Shown: positions 7,991-46,237 of the stretch, one piece after another
Numbering within the stretch: position 1 is the first letter of the stretch
Layout of the letters: every line of letters starts with the position of its first letter
Notes under the pieces: generated by a model
The model's database searches: none
The model's input: only the letters and a program-made list of their open reading frames with translations
What the model was told of the DNA's origin: nothing
Assembly (NCBI GenBank): GCA_947446815.1
Contig: CANFGT010000002.1
Location: 186,001 to 250,000, forward strand
Direction: 5' to 3'
Source of the DNA: Acidimicrobiaceae bacterium
GTDB taxonomy: Bacteria; Actinomycetota; Acidimicrobiia; Acidimicrobiales; Ilumatobacteraceae
DNA: 64,000 nt
Program-made: the position numbers and the translations under genes

Positions 7991-8004
7991 ACAACTATCT
8001 TGAA

Positions 8005-8529
8005 TTACGGCTGACCGAAAGTCGCAATCTTGTCAATTTTGCAGACAAAAAGAACTCGACGCTCGTCGATAGACGGATCACGCAAGCCGTAGGTGTCTCC
8101 ACCGTCGACAATGTACTTACGCCAAATCTTGTTGAGATGTTCTGTTACGAAGGTGCCTTCTTTTGCGTCATCTTCAGAAATCTCGCGTTCAACGGTCACC
8201 TTCATGCTCATCCAGTGGTACATGTTCTCTGGATTCATGATGAGGATGGTGATTTGCGGAGTCTTACGAATCCACTTTGTCTTGGTGCGCTGAGCTGCCA
8301 CATTGACGAGAACCTTGTCGCCGTCATAGTCGAACCACATCGGTGTGAGGTTTGGACGTCCGTCGCTTCCCATAACAGCCATGGTGCAAGCAAATGGCTT
8401 GTCGACGAGCATTTTGTAGTTCGGATCAAGGTCATTCAGTGAGTTGACCGAATCGTGGTCTCCGACAGCAAATTGTCCAGGCTGTAACCCGGATGCAACA
8501 TCGCGAAATTTCGCCACTCTGATAGCCAT
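8005..8529 (-). CDS. PPOX-fold (pyridoxamine 5'-phosphate oxidase-like) protein, probably F420- or flavin-binding
   Basis: About 174 residues from the ATG at 8529, preceded by a GGGGG seven bases upstream. An in-frame ATG at 8571 lacks such a site. The body fits the split-barrel class: M-G-S-D-G-R-P-N-L-T-P-M-W-F-D-Y-D-G-D and V-N-V-A-A-Q-R-T-K-T-K-W-I-R, typical of actinobacterial PPOX-class F420-dependent enzymes. The conserved T-K-x-x-x-I segment is where F420 relatives bind cofactor. It lies 14 bases downstream of the monooxygenase start and may belong to the same operon, where it would supply a redox step. The cofactor is not proven. Confidence 0.75.
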   Translation of the reverse strand: MAIRVAKFRDVASGLQPGQFAVGDHDSVNSLNDLDPNYKMLVDKPFACTMAVMGSDGRPNLTPMWFDYDGDKVLVNVAAQRTKTKWIRKTPQITILIMNPENMYHWMSMKVTVEREISEDDAKEGTFVTEHLNKIWRKYIVDGGDTYGLRDPSIDERRVLFVCKIDKIATFGQP

Positions 8530-8622
8530 AAATTTTCCCCCAGGAATAGCGCCGTAGTCGTACGGCTTCAAAAACTTATCACTGGTGCGTCAGTGCGAGA
8601 CAGGGGGCAACCCAAAGCGCTA

Positions 8623-8651
8623 TTGACCCACCATCAGCCAATTTGTATACA
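8623..8651 (+). promoter_or_regulatory. Sigma70-type promoter for the DUF3237 gene
   Basis: A -35 hexamer TTGACC (8623-8628) and a -10 hexamer TATACA (8646-8651) are separated by exactly 17 bases. The expected transcription start is near 8658, some 20 bases before the ATG at 8678. A GAAAGG ribosome-binding site sits seven bases before that ATG. This is one of the cleanest consensus promoters in the window and lies in the divergent gap. Confidence 0.65.
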
Positions 8652-8677
8652 GTCATATTTGAACGAAAGGCCGTCAT

Positions 8678-9091
8678 ATGTCGACACTTGATGCACTTCC
8701 AGTTGATTTTCTCTTCCGAATGGAACTTGATCTCGGTGAAAAGCAAGTCATGCCTCGTGGACCGCAAGGTACGCGTGTCTATGCCCAAGTGGCTGGTGGC
8801 CGAGTTGAAGGACCTCGTTTAAAGGGAACTGTCGCACCGGGAGCCGACTGGGTGACTGTGCGAGCAGATGGCTCAGCGCAATTGGACGTACGTCTTGTGA
8901 TTACCGCAGATGATGGCGCCGTCATCTTCATGCAATACCAAGGTCTTCTTGGGTCTGATGGCATTCCTCGGACAGCGCCATTGTTCCAAGCTGCTGCAGA
9001 GCAACACCAATGGTTGAATCTTGTTCAGGGTATTGGAATCGGCACTTCAACTGCTGAATGCGTTACCTACGAGGTGTACGGACTTCGCTAG
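8678..9091 (+). CDS. DUF3237 family protein
   Basis: 137 residues. The family pattern is visible: an N-terminal strand L-F-R-M-E-L-D-L, then G-R-V-E-G-P-R-L-K-G-T-V-x-P-G-A-D-W, R-A-D-G-S-A-Q-L-D-V-R and V-I-F-M-Q-Y-Q-G-L-L. DUF3237 proteins are small beta-barrels of unknown function, often near catabolic genes in actinobacteria. It is divergent from the PPOX/monooxygenase/DUF3500 genes, with a strong promoter of its own, and convergent with the lipoprotein gene at 9145. The length is normal. Confidence 0.85.
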   Translation: MSTLDALPVDFLFRMELDLGEKQVMPRGPQGTRVYAQVAGGRVEGPRLKGTVAPGADWVTVRADGSAQLDVRLVITADDGAVIFMQYQGLLGSDGIPRTAPLFQAAAEQHQWLNLVQGIGIGTSTAECVTYEVYGLR

Positions 9092-9144
9092 TTCCCATGA
9101 CGGACTTCCTCAAATAAAATCTATTGAGAATTCTTGACACTTAG

Positions 9145-10512
9145 CTAGCCAGGTCGACTGATAAGAAAAGGTGCAACTTCTTGAAACTCTGAAGTAACAA
9201 GAACCTCACCATCTTCAGTTACTTCCAACTCATGACCCAAGTTATGTGTGAAGGAGTTGTACCGATAGAGCCATTCGAATTTCTTCTGAACTCCGTCGGG
9301 GGTAAATCTCGCCAAGAAAAGACGATTCCGATCTGAATATTTTTGTGTCTTCGCTCCACCCAAGAGAATGAATTCTCCAGTGGGAAGAACTGAAATATCA
9401 AATCCGTCTGCAAATCGCATCGTGGTCTTTAGCTTCACGCCGGGAATGCGAAGCTTTTTAGCCCAGAGCAATGCGCCTTCTGAAGAGTATTTCGCGACGA
9501 CTAAGTCCTGAATCCAAAACGGACGAATTACTTTCGACTTTTTGGATGGGTCAAAGTCATTTGACGTGTTCAGCGGTATGGCGACTAGTGCATTTCCTTC
9601 AGAGTCTGATGCAAGAGCAATTTTCTCTGTAGGAAATTCATCACCAAAGCCTATGTAAACACCGTTTGGGCCGATGTCGATTCGCCTTTGGAAATCGATA
9701 GACCAAACTTTCTTTCCTGAAGTTGTTAACTGAGTCAGTTCATTTGGGCTGGCAGCAAAAAGTTGTTTCTTGTGTGGGGAGGAGAAAGAGGAAAAGTACG
9801 TTCCCTCTGTCGACCATTTCTTTTTGCCGGACGAATTAATCATCAGAGTCGTCTCGCCTTGAATGAAGGTGTTCCCATCAAGGTCAGTCCTACATGTTCC
9901 GATGTTTTCGGCTGGTCCGTTTGTCTCCCATAGTGGAGTGCCTTCCGGTGTGAATTTCCTCAGTTGCCAATCGCACGCATACACATTGCCCATGCGATCG
10001 ACGTCAACAGTGATCCCGCGAAACCAGTGATACGGACTTGATTGTCCAAAACAGTGAATCCATTGGAATTGTGAGTCCACATCAAATTTGGCGATGAACT
10101 CGAAGGTTCGTCCGATGATTCCGACTGTTTTCACTGCAGATGCGGGCTCAAAGTCGTGGGCATCAGACATTAGGCCACCAATGATCTTGTTGCCATCTGC
10201 ATCAATCGCCAGCGAAGTGGTGATTACCCCTGGCGAATCAAACGGATCGTATTCCACCTTGACAGGCTCTTTCGCTCGAACTTTTTCGCAAGACGCTGAG
10301 AGAACGTCAGCTGGGATCTCCGGCGTTGTATCGAGTGGTGCGGTGGGGCACCCGTAGTCGATGCCGTCTTCTGGGCATCCCAGTGGGTTGTTGGGATCAG
10401 TCGTGGATGTTGTGCTGGTCTGTGACGAGATTGAATTACGCGATTCTGTAGCAGTGCCTGAACAAGCAGTAAGAAATGCTGCGCATATCAATCCGATGAC
10501 AAATCGTCTCAT
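9145..10512 (-). CDS. Lipoprotein with beta-propeller-like repeats
   Basis: 455 residues. The signal peptide ends in a lipobox, F-L-T-A-C, with Cys17 predicted to be lipidated. A Thr/Ser-rich stretch follows. Several short repeats resemble SBBP/PQQ-type beta-propeller blades: L-A-I-D-A-D-G-N-K-I-I-G-G, V-D-R-M-G-N-V-Y-A-C-D and A-S-D-S-E-G-N-A-L-V-A-I. A binding or sensing role at the outer face of the membrane is plausible, but no ligand can be named. Its start overlaps the stop of the 171-residue secreted protein by 4 bases (10509-10512), so the two form an operon. Confidence 0.65.
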   Translation of the reverse strand: MRRFVIGLICAAFLTACSGTATESRNSISSQTSTTSTTDPNNPLGCPEDGIDYGCPTAPLDTTPEIPADVLSASCEKVRAKEPVKVEYDPFDSPGVITTSLAIDADGNKIIGGLMSDAHDFEPASAVKTVGIIGRTFEFIAKFDVDSQFQWIHCFGQSSPYHWFRGITVDVDRMGNVYACDWQLRKFTPEGTPLWETNGPAENIGTCRTDLDGNTFIQGETTLMINSSGKKKWSTEGTYFSSFSSPHKKQLFAASPNELTQLTTSGKKVWSIDFQRRIDIGPNGVYIGFGDEFPTEKIALASDSEGNALVAIPLNTSNDFDPSKKSKVIRPFWIQDLVVAKYSSEGALLWAKKLRIPGVKLKTTMRFADGFDISVLPTGEFILLGGAKTQKYSDRNRLFLARFTPDGVQKKFEWLYRYNSFTHNLGHELEVTEDGEVLVTSEFQEVAPFLISRPG

Positions 10513-11267: not shown

Positions 11268-11343
11268 TGGAGCCCAAGATGAGAATCGAACTCACGACCT
11301 ACGCATTACGAGTGCGTTGCTCTACCGACTGAGCTACCTGGGC
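11268..11343 (-). tRNA. tRNA-Thr (anticodon CGU)
   Basis: On the minus strand the sequence folds into a full cloverleaf. The acceptor stem GCCCAGG pairs with CTTGGGC, the D-arm begins GCTCAGTCGGTA, and the anticodon stem ACGCA pairs with TGCGT around the loop CTCGTAA. The T-arm GTGAG-TTCGATT-CTCAT follows. Discriminator T and CCA are encoded at the 3' end. The anticodon CGT reads the threonine codon ACG. The total is 76 bases. A toxin-antitoxin pair lies just upstream of it in transcription order. Confidence 0.95.
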
Positions 11344-11390: not shown

Positions 11391-11654
11391 CTAGAACTTG
11401 CGATAAATGTTGCGCCGGTGCCCAATGTCAAAGATGATCACCGTGAGAACTCCGTGGTCTACTCGGTACACGATTCGATAATCACCAGCACGTAAGCGAA
11501 ATGTATTGGTTCCCTTCACTGGCCGTGAATTGGGGGGATAAGGATCAATGGAAAGCACCTGGATAGCGCCATCAACTCGGCGTCGCATCTGTGGTTGCAA
11601 TTGGGCAAGAGCCTTCTCGGCTGCTCGCGAAAACTCAACTGTGTAGCGAGTCAT
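11391..11654 (-). CDS. RelE/ParE-superfamily toxin
   Basis: 87 residues, typical of the family. It starts M-T-R-Y-T-V-E-F-S-R-A-A-E-K-A-L and ends with F-R-L-R-A-G-D-Y-R-I-V-Y-R-V plus a C-terminal I-G-H-R-R-N-I-Y-R-K. These are the hallmark strands and basic tail of RelE-type mRNA interferases, which cut mRNA on the ribosome. The basic residues in R-L-R-A-G-D-Y-R and the tail are those used by active family members, so the toxin looks intact. It overlaps the antitoxin gene by 4 bases (11651-11654). Confidence 0.9.
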   Translation of the reverse strand: MTRYTVEFSRAAEKALAQLQPQMRRRVDGAIQVLSIDPYPPNSRPVKGTNTFRLRAGDYRIVYRVDHGVLTVIIFDIGHRRNIYRKF

Positions 11655-38566: not shown

Positions 38567-39898
38567 CTATTTGAGCGAGCCCGGCTTCAAAGTCTCAGGG
38601 TCAAATAAAGCAAAGAAATCTTTTGTTGCGCCATGCAGATGACGACCCGGATCACCCATGCGCGTGTCAATGGTCTTTCCTGTTCGATCAGTTTTTCCAA
38701 AGTCTGTATAGGTTGCAAAGAATGGCCATGTGCCATTGATGTCTAATTCCATTGCTGTTTTGCACCCAAGAAGAACAAGAGTGTCGGCCAACATCCCGAT
38801 GTTCACTTTGCCCACGGCCACAAACATCATGAGGCCGTCGGTACGTAAGCAAGCTGCCGAACGAAAGTTAAAGACCTTGTTGTCAAAGTCTTCTCCCCAA
38901 TTAACCGCCTTGAATGACCGGTACACCGACTTGTTCTCTGCAACGAGAGGCGGAAGGTTCTGGCGTAGAGAGGTCCAGCCTTCATCTGCATGCATGTCTT
39001 CACCCCACACGCCGATAGTGCTCGTGCCATCAGCGCGAATGCCAAATGTTGCATAGCCCTTACGAAGTGCGCGAACAGTGCGTCCTTCAGTGACATATCC
39101 ACCTGGCTCGTGTTCGAAGCGGAAACCACCACTAAAACTTGCGATGAGTGACTTCACCGCTGATCCTCGGATACGGGACGAATTGTTCCAGTTCTTTCCA
39201 CCAGGAACTTCAGTGCCGTTGAAAAGTGCAGCATGCACTTTTGTGGGGTCGTAGGTGGCCATTGTGGCTACGACTGATCCATAACACCAAAGAGGTCGGA
39301 TAGAGCTTGCGTAAATGATTGGCTCTTTGCGCACTTTTGCAATTGCATGCCATACTCCCTCACCTTTGATGGCCGGTGAAATAAACGCTTCAATATCGGT
39401 AGGGCGCGAAGGAATTGTGGTTGTGGTCGTTGTTGTGGTTTCGTCCGGCAACGGACTGCTTGTGGTGGTGGTTGTCGTAGTTGTCGCAATGGTGGTCGAA
39501 ACATTCTTTGGTGCAGGGCACGACTGTGTTGCTTTCACTGGTGTACGCACAGCAGGAGCGCTGTTTCCTGTGGGGTGTGTGATGTGGGGCGTTGAGACGC
39601 CAGGCAAATTCTCTGTCGAACTCGGCGGCGTAGTGGTTTCGATTTGTGGTGGGTCTGAATCGAAGGACACGAGCGCGAGTGTGTCGACGGGGGCAACGGC
39701 GGGTGGGTCACTGTGCATCCACGCTTCTAATTTGTCGACCACTGCGCCCATACCCTTGTTGCGTGCCCAGGAGGCAACATTTTGTTGGAGTGGTTCGTTG
39801 GGGTGGGCGAGAACATACCGAGTGACAGAGAAACCGGTGACAACTGAGAAGACAAGAACCCCCGCGCCCAGGCTTCTGAAGATCTTGCGGCGATTCAC
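38567..39898 (-). CDS. Membrane-anchored phosphodiester glycosidase-like protein
   Basis: 443 residues. An N-terminal anchor helix (about 10-30) is followed by a long Pro/Thr-rich linker with two runs of Thr (about 135-170), then a globular C-terminal domain. The C-terminal domain has G-G-F-R-F, R-A-D-G-T-S-T-I-G-V-W-G and a late M-E-L-D-I-N-G-T-W, which fit the NAGPA-like phosphodiester glycosidase family. The linker would span the cell wall. Substrates are unknown. It is convergent with the metallo-hydrolase gene with no gap. Confidence 0.75.
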   Translation of the reverse strand: MNRRKIFRSLGAGVLVFSVVTGFSVTRYVLAHPNEPLQQNVASWARNKGMGAVVDKLEAWMHSDPPAVAPVDTLALVSFDSDPPQIETTTPPSSTENLPGVSTPHITHPTGNSAPAVRTPVKATQSCPAPKNVSTTIATTTTTTTTSSPLPDETTTTTTTTIPSRPTDIEAFISPAIKGEGVWHAIAKVRKEPIIYASSIRPLWCYGSVVATMATYDPTKVHAALFNGTEVPGGKNWNNSSRIRGSAVKSLIASFSGGFRFEHEPGGYVTEGRTVRALRKGYATFGIRADGTSTIGVWGEDMHADEGWTSLRQNLPPLVAENKSVYRSFKAVNWGEDFDNKVFNFRSAACLRTDGLMMFVAVGKVNIGMLADTLVLLGCKTAMELDINGTWPFFATYTDFGKTDRTGKTIDTRMGDPGRHLHGATKDFFALFDPETLKPGSLK

Positions 39899-39916: not shown

Positions 39917-41401
39917 TTAGGAGGATGAACCCTTGTCACGTAAGTGGCGCCCGACATATGCCACCACCACTTGTTGCGTTTCGTTATCAAAGTACAGATG
40001 AATTCGTACTAGGTGCGCTTTCCGACCGCGACGAAGATGAGCCTCTGCTCTCACTATTTTTCCTCGCCAATCGATGAGGTAGTCCTCTTCGTATTTCTGA
40101 CGTGCTGTTGCAGAAATGTCAGGAGCAAAATCAAGACCCATCTGTCGGCAGGCCAACTTGATGCTGGTGCCCGTAATTTCTCCCGACATCCAGGCACGAG
40201 CCACTTCATTGAGTCGCACTAAATCCTGGAGAACGCTGACAGGTTCTGGACCTTCGAGACCCTCGCCCGACTCAATGGCGCGCTCATGAAAGATGAGAAA
40301 TGGGCAATGTTCTTGAGCCAGCCGCAGTGCTTCTGTCATTGACGCAACTGCACGTGTGTTGGCGGTATTGCCCGCTTGCATTTCTAACGACACATTGCGC
40401 AAGATGAGTTCATCGAGTTGCCCACCCTTTTTCTCTAACTGCGCACGTTGCTCGGCCACTCGGCGGTCAGCATCTGCAAGTGCTGCTTCTAACTCATCGA
40501 TAGAAGCTTGCAGTTGCTCGATATGGACAGCATGTTCTTCACTCTGAACGTCGTTAGTACCGCTGACGTCGCGAATAGAGATTTCAAAAAGATCATCTTC
40601 GCGTCGAGGAGGCGCAGGAACTCGAGGTGCTGCGATGGAGCGCGCGGCGGCATCAATGATGATTTGTACAAGTCGTGACCGCTCGCGATTTTCTGACGCA
40701 GTTGGTAATTCACGGCGCCGAACAATTTCTGGTTCGGTGTTTCCCGCCCAATTCACAAGGACGGTTCCCGGACCAACAAGTGTGTAACCGGTCAACATTA
40801 AGAATCCGTGGAGAGCTTCTGCGGTCGTGAGCTGCACTACATGGACCAGCCCAATGAGCGGTCCAGCCCCCATTGCGATGAGTGGGGGAGTTCGACGTTC
40901 AAAGTCGAGTACTTCAACGAGAACGGGAAGACGACGGCTGGGTGCGAGAACAAATGCTGCAATCTCTTGCCCACCTAATTCATCAGACACAAGCGATGGT
41001 GAATCTGAGATGTAGCGATTCGCATCTTCGGAGGGAACAAGTGCAAGCGCCTTCTTGACAAGTTGTGCGACGCGCAATGGAAGAAATGGTGAAGTGAAGG
41101 GGATGACTCGCGATGCAGTCGGTGTCGATGCAATGCGCACATCGAACGTAAGGACTTCCCCGATGAGAACCACGCTGATGGTCAATGTCTCTACGTGGGA
41201 ACTCCCGGGTGCGCTCTCGGTAATCGTGAGACGAAATACGGGGTCATCAGAGGCTTCGCGAATACGGACTGTTGTTCCGGGACCGCGCGACTCAAGTGGA
41301 TAAAACTCAACGAGCCAATCACTGACGAGATCAATCAGGGCAATACGTTGCTGCTCGGTGCAATCGACTGTGGGAAGAGAGAGCGCGTAGGTGGTAATCA
41401 C
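39917..41401 (-). CDS. Unrecognised protein with coiled coil and a C-terminal conserved module
   Basis: 494 residues. Residues 1-260 form a globular region that I do not recognise. A heptad-rich coiled coil covers about 290-345 (L-Q-A-S-I-D-E-L-E-A-A-L-A-D-A-D-R-R-V). The last about 65 residues hold Y-E-E-D-Y-L-I-D-W, R-R-G-R-K-A-H-L-V-R-I-H-L-Y-F-D and V-V-V-A-Y-V-G-R-H-L. This module, 'H-x-x-x-R-I-H-x-x-x-D ... V-x-Y-x-G-x-H-L', resembles from memory the end of many uncharacterised, accessory-region proteins. There is no signal peptide. It lies 19 bases upstream of the glycosidase-like gene. Confidence 0.65.
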   Translation of the reverse strand: MITTYALSLPTVDCTEQQRIALIDLVSDWLVEFYPLESRGPGTTVRIREASDDPVFRLTITESAPGSSHVETLTISVVLIGEVLTFDVRIASTPTASRVIPFTSPFLPLRVAQLVKKALALVPSEDANRYISDSPSLVSDELGGQEIAAFVLAPSRRLPVLVEVLDFERRTPPLIAMGAGPLIGLVHVVQLTTAEALHGFLMLTGYTLVGPGTVLVNWAGNTEPEIVRRRELPTASENRERSRLVQIIIDAAARSIAAPRVPAPPRREDDLFEISIRDVSGTNDVQSEEHAVHIEQLQASIDELEAALADADRRVAEQRAQLEKKGGQLDELILRNVSLEMQAGNTANTRAVASMTEALRLAQEHCPFLIFHERAIESGEGLEGPEPVSVLQDLVRLNEVARAWMSGEITGTSIKLACRQMGLDFAPDISATARQKYEEDYLIDWRGKIVRAEAHLRRGRKAHLVRIHLYFDNETQQVVVAYVGRHLRDKGSSS

Positions 41402-45083: not shown

Positions 45084-45563
45084 TTAGTTGCGACGGGTTG
45101 CTGTCGCCGGCCACGGCGACATTTCCAGGCCAACACCGGAGTACACCGAGTGCAATAACGCTGCGTACGAGACTGAAATATGAGCCCTGCAGAGCCTTGC
45201 TAACTCATCGCGAAAGAGAACTCCGTGAGATTCAGCGCCTACGACAACATGGGCTAGTTCATGGAGCAAGGTAGCCACTGTGGTGGATTGCCCTCGAACG
45301 CAGATGACATTTTCATCGATGTAGGTCAAGCCCAACGCCGCTTGGCTTTTGCGTGCAACGAGCACCTGCGGAACTTCAATGTCTTCTGTGTGGCAGATGA
45401 CAGTAAGAAAAGATGAAGCCTCTTTGGAAATCAGTTTTCGCGAACCGAGTTCGGTTTCAACAATGTCTTCGCATGCGTAAACCAATGCCTGTTCAGGACT
45501 ACATCTCTGATACTCGCCGGCGCGAAGCATTGCCGCATCAACGAATACGTGTAGTGGTGTCAC
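45084..45563 (-). CDS. Zincin-like protein with HExxH motif
   Basis: 159 residues. The motif L-L-H-E-L-A-H-V-V-V-G near residue 120 is the active site of zinc-dependent metalloproteases. A third ligand may be the His in E-S-H-G. There is no signal peptide. It fits the group of small SprT- or phage-type putative peptidases. It overlaps the DUF2786 gene by 4 bases, a pairing I have seen in actinobacteria and phages, but with no agreed function. The domain could equally be a structural zinc protein. Confidence 0.7.
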   Translation of the reverse strand: MTPLHVFVDAAMLRAGEYQRCSPEQALVYACEDIVETELGSRKLISKEASSFLTVICHTEDIEVPQVLVARKSQAALGLTYIDENVICVRGQSTTVATLLHELAHVVVGAESHGVLFRDELARLCRAHISVSYAALLHSVYSGVGLEMSPWPATATRRN

Positions 45564-46237
45564 CCAAGTTCTCCGCGAACGCCACTGGTAAATGAACGCC
45601 CGCCAGAAGAGAAGCCTCGACCAGCACTATGGCCACTGCTGTACGCGCCCGACGAACTATCTGAGTAGGAATAGCCTCCGGTTAGCCGCGGGCCGTTGAG
45701 CCGAAGTTCATCTTGTGCGCGCTTCATACGGTCGGCAAGAACAAGTCCAGAACCAGGAGTTTCGGCAATGAATTCTTTTTTCGATGTTGATAGGGCTTCT
45801 GATATTCCGCGTTGAAAACCATGCCACCATGAAGTGCGCCATGAACGATCACCGCGAGGGAGCAAACGTAAGCCCATCATGTCGGCTGCTCCGAACAATG
45901 TGTACGCCGCGGTGATGTCGTTGTCGCGACCATAGAGAACGACGACACATGCACCGTCTTCATCGTCGGTGCGATAACCAGCGCACGAGTGAGCCAAGCC
46001 AATGGCGTACAAGATGTTCTGACGGCGAACGCGGTATGGACCATGAACAGAAAAGCGACGCACCACGATTGTGTTGTCTTCTGGCTTTTTCGCATCGTCA
46101 ATGTCACTGCTTGATAACCCATGCTTCTGCATCAGTTTGGATGCCAATGCAAGTGCAGTCTCTGCTTCTGCCTGGGGTGTGTTGGGATGCTGCGCGAGCG
46201 TGAGGAGTGCCTGAATGCGGTCGCGTTGATCAGTCAT
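45560..46237 (-). CDS. DUF2786 domain protein
   Basis: 225 residues. Residues about 1-45 carry the DUF2786 pattern: I-Q-A-L-L-T-L-A-Q-H-P-N-T-P-Q-A-E-A-E-x-A-L and L-M-Q-K-H-G-L. A second domain follows with W-W-H-G-F-Q-R-G-I, and a Ser/Gly-rich tail (Y-S-D-S-S-S-G-A-Y-S-S-G-H-S-A-G). The role is unknown. Members often sit next to metalloprotease-like genes, as here. It is the first gene of the pair. Confidence 0.82.
   Translation of the reverse strand: MTDQRDRIQALLTLAQHPNTPQAEAETALALASKLMQKHGLSSSDIDDAKKPEDNTIVVRRFSVHGPYRVRRQNILYAIGLAHSCAGYRTDDEDGACVVVLYGRDNDITAAYTLFGAADMMGLRLLPRGDRSWRTSWWHGFQRGISEALSTSKKEFIAETPGSGLVLADRMKRAQDELRLNGPRLTGGYSYSDSSSGAYSSGHSAGRGFSSGGRSFTSGVRGELG

Follow-up and report, generated by a model that had tools for sequence, protein, structure and literature searches.

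A core-genome relative of the candidate defence protein HEC-07 in freshwater actinobacteria carries a C-terminal module with a predicted RelE-type fold

The closest described relatives of the protein considered here belong to two defence-related groups. HEC-07 (Hma-embedded candidate 7 in PADLOC-DB) is a candidate defence protein, and a table entry in PMC10855318 lists HEC genes as of unknown mechanism. A passage in PMC12988326 states that several HECs, of which HEC-06 is named, show antiviral activity, and HEC-01 receives a passing mention in PMC12724379. The literature search found no experiment on HEC-07 itself. The genes NsnA, NsnB and NsnC are those that we take to make up the Menshen system, with NsnC as the third gene. 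No RelE fold assigned to HEC-07 or NsnC was found in the literature searched; a study by Li et al. 2025, reportedly on Menshen domain polymorphism, lay outside the scope of that search, and the newness on the NsnC side is provisional. Of the papers searched, only PMC12926258 has both Menshen and RelE as whole words, in separate places of its text. For the RelE-type toxin YafQ, a section of PMC6529426 reports that toxicity needs H50, H63 and H87, with H87 the proposed general acid, and that natural YafQs with R or Y in place of H63 exist.

The locus lies in a stretch of 64,000 nucleotides (the window) from a contig of an Acidimicrobiaceae bacterium (GenBank accession number CANFGT010000002.1). 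A first-pass annotation had described a 494-residue reading frame there, with a long coiled coil and two conserved C-terminal motifs, and this frame is confirmed, on the minus strand with a GTG start (Table 1). Both motifs are present, R-I-H-L-Y-F-D at residues 466–472 and V-A-Y-V-G-R-H-L at residues 480–487 of the protein, P0001. The start codon position is kept in close relatives, where the codon is mostly ATG, compared with GTG in the window. Across 21 pairs of relatives with 81–98% identity, dN/dS was 0.00–0.18 in every region in which it was defined, values that are only rough because the pairs are non-independent and dS is saturated in many of them. The C-terminal module gave 0.00–0.08 (defined in 19 of the 21 pairs), and in most pairs, though not in all, its value was below those of the other three regions. 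P0001 is therefore a gene encoding a functional protein, and it is under purifying selection. A chance open reading frame at this position was ruled out by the genus-wide matches, the conserved start and the low dN/dS. Paralogues in the source genome were also rejected, as the C-terminal module matches only once there (E≤10), making the gene single copy.

Table 1. Coordinates of P0001, its parts and conserved codons, and its upstream neighbour in the window
Feature	Coordinates	Strand	Remarks
494-aa HEC-07-related protein P0001	39917..41401	-	GTG start; stop codon included
P0001 residues 1-123, beta-alpha-beta4-alpha N-terminal domain	41033..41401	-	AlphaFold2 pLDDT mostly above 80; inside the HEC-07-homologous stretch
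P0001 residues 132-253, thioredoxin-like predicted fold without cysteine, R-x-L-P at 156-159	40643..41008	-	From VIA
P0001 residues 285-343, long helix, predicted coiled coil	40373..40549	-	AlphaFold2 secondary structure
P0001 residues 351-488, C-terminal module, RelE/HigB/YafQ-like predicted fold, common to HEC-07 and NsnC	39938..40351	-	
H455 codon	40037..40039	-	Invariant: 35/35 (A2), 24/24 (A3), 16/16 (A12)
R466 codon	40004..40006	-	35/35 (A2), 24/24 (A3), 14/16 (A12; S in two)
H486 codon (G-R-H)	39944..39946	-	35/35 (A2), 24/24 (A3), 15/16 (A12; K in NsnC)
213-aa partner P0002	41432..42073	-	Upstream of P0001; conserved; no known family; genus-specific as far as seen

Searches for known families were largely negative. 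No Pfam or NCBIfam family exceeded the cut-off for P0001, weak and mostly coiled-coil matches being set aside, and scans of the same two collections yielded no family for the C-terminal module. Nothing convincing was found in PHROGs, and sequence searches of the PDB returned nothing significant for full-length P0001, the C-terminal profile or NsnC. The whole protein had no match among phage records and two matches among plasmid records, both confined to the C-terminal part. The PADLOC models of HEC-07 and NsnC both match the C-terminal part of P0001 (E 3.3e-14 and E 8.8e-10, respectively). The N-terminal 260 residues had been thought to match nothing, a claim refuted by hhalign, which aligned residues 4–222 with the N-termini of HEC-07 proteins over 212 columns (Prob 95.9, E 5.4e-9) when the HEC-07 side held no member of the window family. 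The C-terminal profile aligned with HEC-07 over 138 columns (Prob 99.1, E 4.4e-19), these profile–profile E-values being for one comparison, and the P0001 homologue from another genus (G053) matches HEC-07 positions 107–233 (E 3.5e-6). In an alignment of HEC-07-type N-terminal halves (A6), an R-x-x-P stretch comparable to residues 156–159 of P0001 has the R in 12 of 12 and the P in 9 of 12 sequences. On these profile comparisons both halves of P0001 are homologous to those of HEC-07.

The HEC-07-type proteins were gathered from other actinobacteria, IMG/VR contigs and plasmids. The protein of L121 was excluded from alignments A3 and A6 and those of L134 and L137 from A6, and for five loci (L092, L095, L102, L103 and L105) the open reading frame picked by the script, not being the matching frame, went unused. 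The HEC-07 model was matched in 22 of 296 genomes of the phylum, four of them from the same family as the window, so that its distribution is sporadic, and a search of E. coli genomes with one HEC-07 gene in near mode gave no match. A full-length HEC-07 gene annotated as hypothetical was found on a 111 kb IncFIB Klebsiella plasmid (L145, bases 8001–9590). Its neighbours there are genes for DNA polymerase III alpha, exonuclease and recombinase, a setting like that of a phage-plasmid, and nine Klebsiella records match it. In two other proteins (L099:1285–3084 and L100:1498–3324) a HEC-07-type N-terminal domain is joined to S1 RNA-binding domains and to a stretch resembling a coiled coil, and neither protein matched the C-terminal module.

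The earlier association of the C-terminal module with defence proteins was upheld, as it is common to HEC-07 and NsnC, which are candidate or known defence proteins. NsnA–NsnB–NsnC loci were found in two actinobacteria (L187 and L188). In the second of these the module ends a 312-aa protein with a full-length NsnC match (E 2.2e-70), whose gene comes immediately after those for NsnA (E 2.7e-121) and NsnB (E 6.7e-101). A direct BLASTP comparison of this NsnC with P0001 gave nothing. The arrangement that marks Menshen, NsnA and NsnB beside an NsnC-like gene, is thus found at L188 and is absent from the window, where neither NsnA nor NsnB was matched among 62 open reading frames (PADLOC, E≤1e-10). 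Elsewhere the module follows an ATP-cone (L126:7846–9240, E 2.2e-7, and L131:7152–8840, E 3.8e-7; L135:8654–10069 looks alike), and in the first two of these proteins it is also preceded by a region that weakly resembles a deoxyribosyltransferase, the match lying below the cut-off (E 0.0033 and 0.0011). Such fusions suggest that nucleotide sensing may be coupled to the module.

P0001 was matched in 29 of the 32 genomes of the genus, the three without a match having an estimated completeness of 80–88%, and in 36 of the 100 genomes of the whole set searched. The nearest relatives are labelled Ilumatobacteraceae, Acidimicrobiaceae, Actinomycetota and acIV metagenome-assembled genomes, some of these labels being clearly odd. 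Altogether 42 P0001 loci were collected, of which 37 were used for neighbour counts after exclusion of the fragments L034, L054, L068, L070 and L073. Alignment A2 comprises 35 members, 34 loci and the window, L033, L038 and L059 also being excluded. P0001 is a genus-core gene of freshwater Ilumatobacteraceae-type actinobacteria and, in the best explanation, has been vertically inherited.

Close P0001 loci have largely conserved surroundings that include asparaginase-, metallo-beta-lactamase-like, sulfatase- and peptidase-type genes. Counts over the 24 close loci treat a contig that stops short as a miss. A phosphodiester-glycosidase-like gene lies downstream in 22, at a distance of 20 bases to 6 kb, a metallo-beta-lactamase-like gene is present in 18 and an asparaginase-like gene in 17. 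An abhydrolase gene is found upstream in 17 and is absent from four loci with room for it. In several relatives the P0001 gene adjoins one for a 556–592 aa protein, near one for a 559–560 aa protein, which are presumably a DUF885-type peptidase and a zinc carboxypeptidase. The setting of P0001 is a core-genome, metabolic neighbourhood. In the window itself, a phosphodiester-glycosidase-like protein with threonine-rich low-complexity stretches (PF09992, E 1e-7) is encoded on the minus strand at 38567–39898, 18 nt downstream of P0001. A two-gene unit on the same strand (45084–46237) encodes a DUF2786 protein, which also matches phrog_421 (E 7.9e-26), and a small protein whose metallopeptidase matches are weak; both are near the P0001 locus in many close relatives. 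Further away, a stand-alone RelE/ParE-type toxin gene (PF05016, E 2.1e-11) on the minus strand at 11403–11639, beside a tRNA-Thr gene (11268–11343), may be half of a toxin–antitoxin pair near the tRNA. The simple script used to call open reading frames missed this small gene, and the neighbour counts are rough.

The first-pass annotation had also placed the module in accessory, defence-rich regions. Neighbours of the distant homologues do match DISARM, BREX, Hma, MADS and Dpd models, but the close homologues, with their largely conserved metabolic surroundings, do not lie in accessory regions. From the 133 open reading frames chosen beside distant homologues, 122 were scanned against PADLOC and matched 167 families, with MADS, DISARM, BREX, Hma and Dpd models leading among the families listed. 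The 62 open reading frames of the window matched six families at E≤1e-10, with one open reading frame each, P0001 among them, a contrast that is only qualitative because many models overlap and some appear in both scans. Matches to mad3, mad8 and a Dpd model are not specific, since they were found in both. As P0001 is not embedded among defence genes in the window, we regard it as a HEC-07 homologue and do not file it as a HEC-07 defence locus. The gene could nevertheless encode an active anti-phage abortive-infection protein like HEC-07, in which a phage trigger would lead to arrest of the cell. The homology to HEC-07 in both halves, the module held in common with NsnC of an NsnA–NsnB–NsnC locus and the defence-type genes near distant homologues point in that direction, but P0001 is core, slowly evolving and single copy with hardly any defence genes nearby, unlike the sporadic HEC-07. 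We consider this possible though on the unlikely side; it overlaps with the explanation that we prefer, in which the trigger is left open.

Immediately upstream of P0001, separated by 22–58 nt, the gene for the 213-aa protein P0002 is present in all 24 close loci (at least 50% identical) of the genome_contigs set. The genus genomes with P0002 are the same 29 (of 32) as those with P0001, and P0002 was matched in 30 of 61 genomes overall; the only match outside the genus was weak (E 5e-4) and contained two stops. P0002 was not found, even by profile search, beside any of the 13 distant P0001 homologues (28–36% identity), two of which are in genomes of other genera (G033 and G053). No convincing match to P0002 was found in Pfam, NCBIfam, PADLOC, PHROGs or the PDB, nor any antitoxin or DNA-binding similarity, and when its profile was compared with the N-terminal, C-terminal and HEC-07 profiles the lowest P was 0.039, against A3. 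In one close relative (L052:7397–7979) the P0002 gene is split over two frames, being broken or misassembled, and the 494-aa gene is open there. A two-gene system had been suggested at the outset, and within the genus the pairing stands, both genes being present in 29 of 32 genomes and adjacent in 24 of 24 loci; it was not seen at the distant loci (0 of 13), so P0001 and P0002 are not a general two-gene system. We find it improbable that the two form a toxin–antitoxin unit in which P0002 is the antitoxin of the RelE-fold domain. The tight linkage and the shared set of 29 genomes would fit such a unit, but a type II pair would be expected to have an adjacent antitoxin wherever the toxin occurs, and P0002 was found beside the close loci only. 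As it was not found beside the 13 distant homologues, a P0001-type protein seems not to need the 213-aa partner there. P0002, with no similarity to antitoxins, DNA-binding proteins or PDB entries, is also larger and more conserved than typical antitoxins.

The full-length AlphaFold2 model of P0001, built from the 35-sequence alignment, had a mean pLDDT of 82.6 and a pTM of 0.54. The long coiled coil noted initially is consistent with a single helix of 59 residues (285–343) flanked by low-confidence linkers. Structure searches had been proposed for the two ends of the protein, and for the N-terminal region they gave weak fold matches for residues 1–123 (VIA 4r7k_A, Z 8.8) and a predicted thioredoxin-like fold for residues 132–253. 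The best thioredoxin match of the latter was 2ypm (Z 9.6, 101 residues, 2.5 A), the top VIA match was 8ras_P (Z 9.9), a chain of plastid RNA polymerase that we take to be thioredoxin z, and thioredoxin was named in 36 of the 50 VIA titles. There was no thioredoxin among the top 50 Foldseek matches of the whole model, the best of which had E 0.0044. The cysteines of P0001 are at residues 14, 366 and 418 only, so residues 132–253 hold no CxxC redox site and identity as a redox thioredoxin was rejected. In this domain R156, L158 and P159 are invariant.

Modelled alone, the C-terminal module gave a pLDDT of 90.1 and a pTM of 0.86 (AlphaFold2). Foldseek placed RelE, HigB, PfiAT, YoeB and MqsR/MqsA entries in its first 15 rows (best E 0.016), with no match reaching E 0.001, and a BFVD search gave no match at E≤0.001. 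The first 40 VIA rows (Z 7.0–4.2) consisted of RelE/HigB/YafQ/YoeB/ParE-type toxins in nearly every case: 37 titles were toxin–antitoxin toxins or complexes (RelE, ParE, HigB, YoeB, YafQ and a few others), the remaining three were Txp40, SO_1444-SO_1445 and HP0894, and row 41 was RegB with Z 3.2. A Z of 7.0 falls within the range of this tool for models without a clear match, and the assignment of a RelE-type fold is made because the VIA list is consistent, not because of the size of Z. The module had no Pfam RelE/ParE match. When it was compared by hhalign with 16 PF05016 proteins, the values were not significant (P 0.011 for A3, 0.074 for A4, 0.077 for A8 and 0.2 for A7); controls for A3 gave P 0.086 or worse in 20 column shuffles and 0.11 when reversed, and the A4, A8 and A7 values were at best similar to those of the best shuffled controls. 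The first strand was aligned with A3 and the last two strands with A4, A8 and A7, in the order that the structure predicts. We describe the C-terminal module as having a predicted RelE-type fold.

Conservation of the module converges on three residues: among 24 modules (9 from the window family and 15 others) no column other than H455, R466 and H486 is fully invariant. The set of 16 modules in A12 adds NsnC and plasmid proteins. In the VIA alignment with 4fxe_F, model residues 22–141 are aligned with RelE 2–80, the last pair being model residue 141 and RelE residue 80, and H486 (model residue 142) would thus stand at RelE residue 81, the position of a catalytic arginine. Judged from the alignment end points and the motif, the three residues seem to fall at RelE-type catalytic positions, a pattern that agrees with a putative RNase. 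A ParE-like module that poisons gyrase and cuts no RNA would also account for the ParE proteins among the VIA structural matches, but conservation is strongest at seemingly RNase-type positions, and YafQ, RelE and a protein titled YoeB/ParE take the first three VIA rows; we regard a gyrase poison as very improbable. The same three residues bear on whether P0001 is a domesticated housekeeping factor, with a RelE-fold module that would bind the ribosome or another partner without cutting and act as a regulator of translation or stress unrelated to phage. Its presence in 29 of 32 genus genomes, the largely conserved synteny, the low dN/dS and the metabolic neighbourhood are all what such a factor would be expected to show. 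Binding alone, however, would not obviously need H455, R466 and H486 to be invariant in all 35 members of A2, and the defence relatives largely carry this set too. We consider a housekeeping factor of this kind unlikely.

The explanation that we prefer, to which we give an even chance, is that P0001 is a chromosomally fixed member of the HEC-07 family composed of a sensor, a coiled coil and a RelE-fold RNase. The N-terminal half, with its alpha/beta domain and redox-inactive thioredoxin-like domain, would act as a sensor or binding platform for a ligand or a phage product, and the coiled coil would dimerise P0001 and transmit the signal. Stress or infection might then free the RelE-fold module from inhibition, and the freed module could cut RNA by means of H455, R466 and H486. 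The RNA would probably be mRNA on the ribosome, and its cleavage would slow or stop translation. The 213-aa neighbour may be a lineage-specific partner or regulator that tunes P0001 in one genus. Homology, the arrangement of the parts, conservation, synteny, purifying selection and the pairing with P0002 are observed, the folds are predictions, and the steps from sensing to RNA cleavage, with the role of the partner, are inferred. The low dN/dS of P0001 and its place in the core genome speak for a general role, while its homology speaks for defence.

A broader reading, which we put forward tentatively and at somewhat less than an even chance, is that HEC-07, NsnC and other proteins, including the fusions with nucleoside-deoxyribosyltransferase-like and ATP-cone domains, share a RelE-fold RNase as C-terminal effector, and that in freshwater Ilumatobacteraceae one such sensor-RNase has become a core gene under strong constraint and has gained a new partner. 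If true, phage defence and translation control would have long been connected. This reading would supply a testable mechanism, RelE-type RNA cleavage in a pocket formed by the two histidines and the arginine, for a module to which our Pfam and NCBIfam scans assigned no family and which is present in a candidate defence protein, NsnC and several other fusions. With a protein of defence type fixed as a core gene of freshwater actinobacteria, one could also ask when immunity genes turn into housekeeping genes. What is new here is a core-genome relative of HEC-07 with a proposed RelE-type effector.

Compared with known systems, P0001 resembles each in part. Residues 132–253 have a predicted fold like that of thioredoxins, whose CxxC site is missing from P0001. 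The RelE, HigB, YafQ and YoeB toxins are like the C-terminal module in predicted fold and in the probable placement of H, R and H, but they have no significant sequence match to it, and they are stand-alone proteins of about 80–120 aa with a small antitoxin, whereas the module has extra helices and forms the C-terminal end of a 494-aa protein. NsnC has a C-terminal module homologous to that of P0001, as judged by profile, and the L188 protein ends in R-I-H-F...A-H-V-G. It differs in its shorter and dissimilar N-terminal part and in the K that replaces H486, and its gene neighbours are those for NsnA (DUF262-like) and the NsnB ATPase, neither of which was seen in the P0001 window. HEC-07 is the closest, with the same order of parts: an N-terminal domain with R-x-x-P, a coiled coil and a C-terminal module with the H/R/H set. 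HEC-07 genes are sporadic and are found on plasmids, on IMG/VR contigs and near defence-type genes, whereas P0001 is core to its genus, sits in a metabolic setting and is accompanied by a 213-aa partner, so that a design of the defence type has apparently been taken into the core genome.
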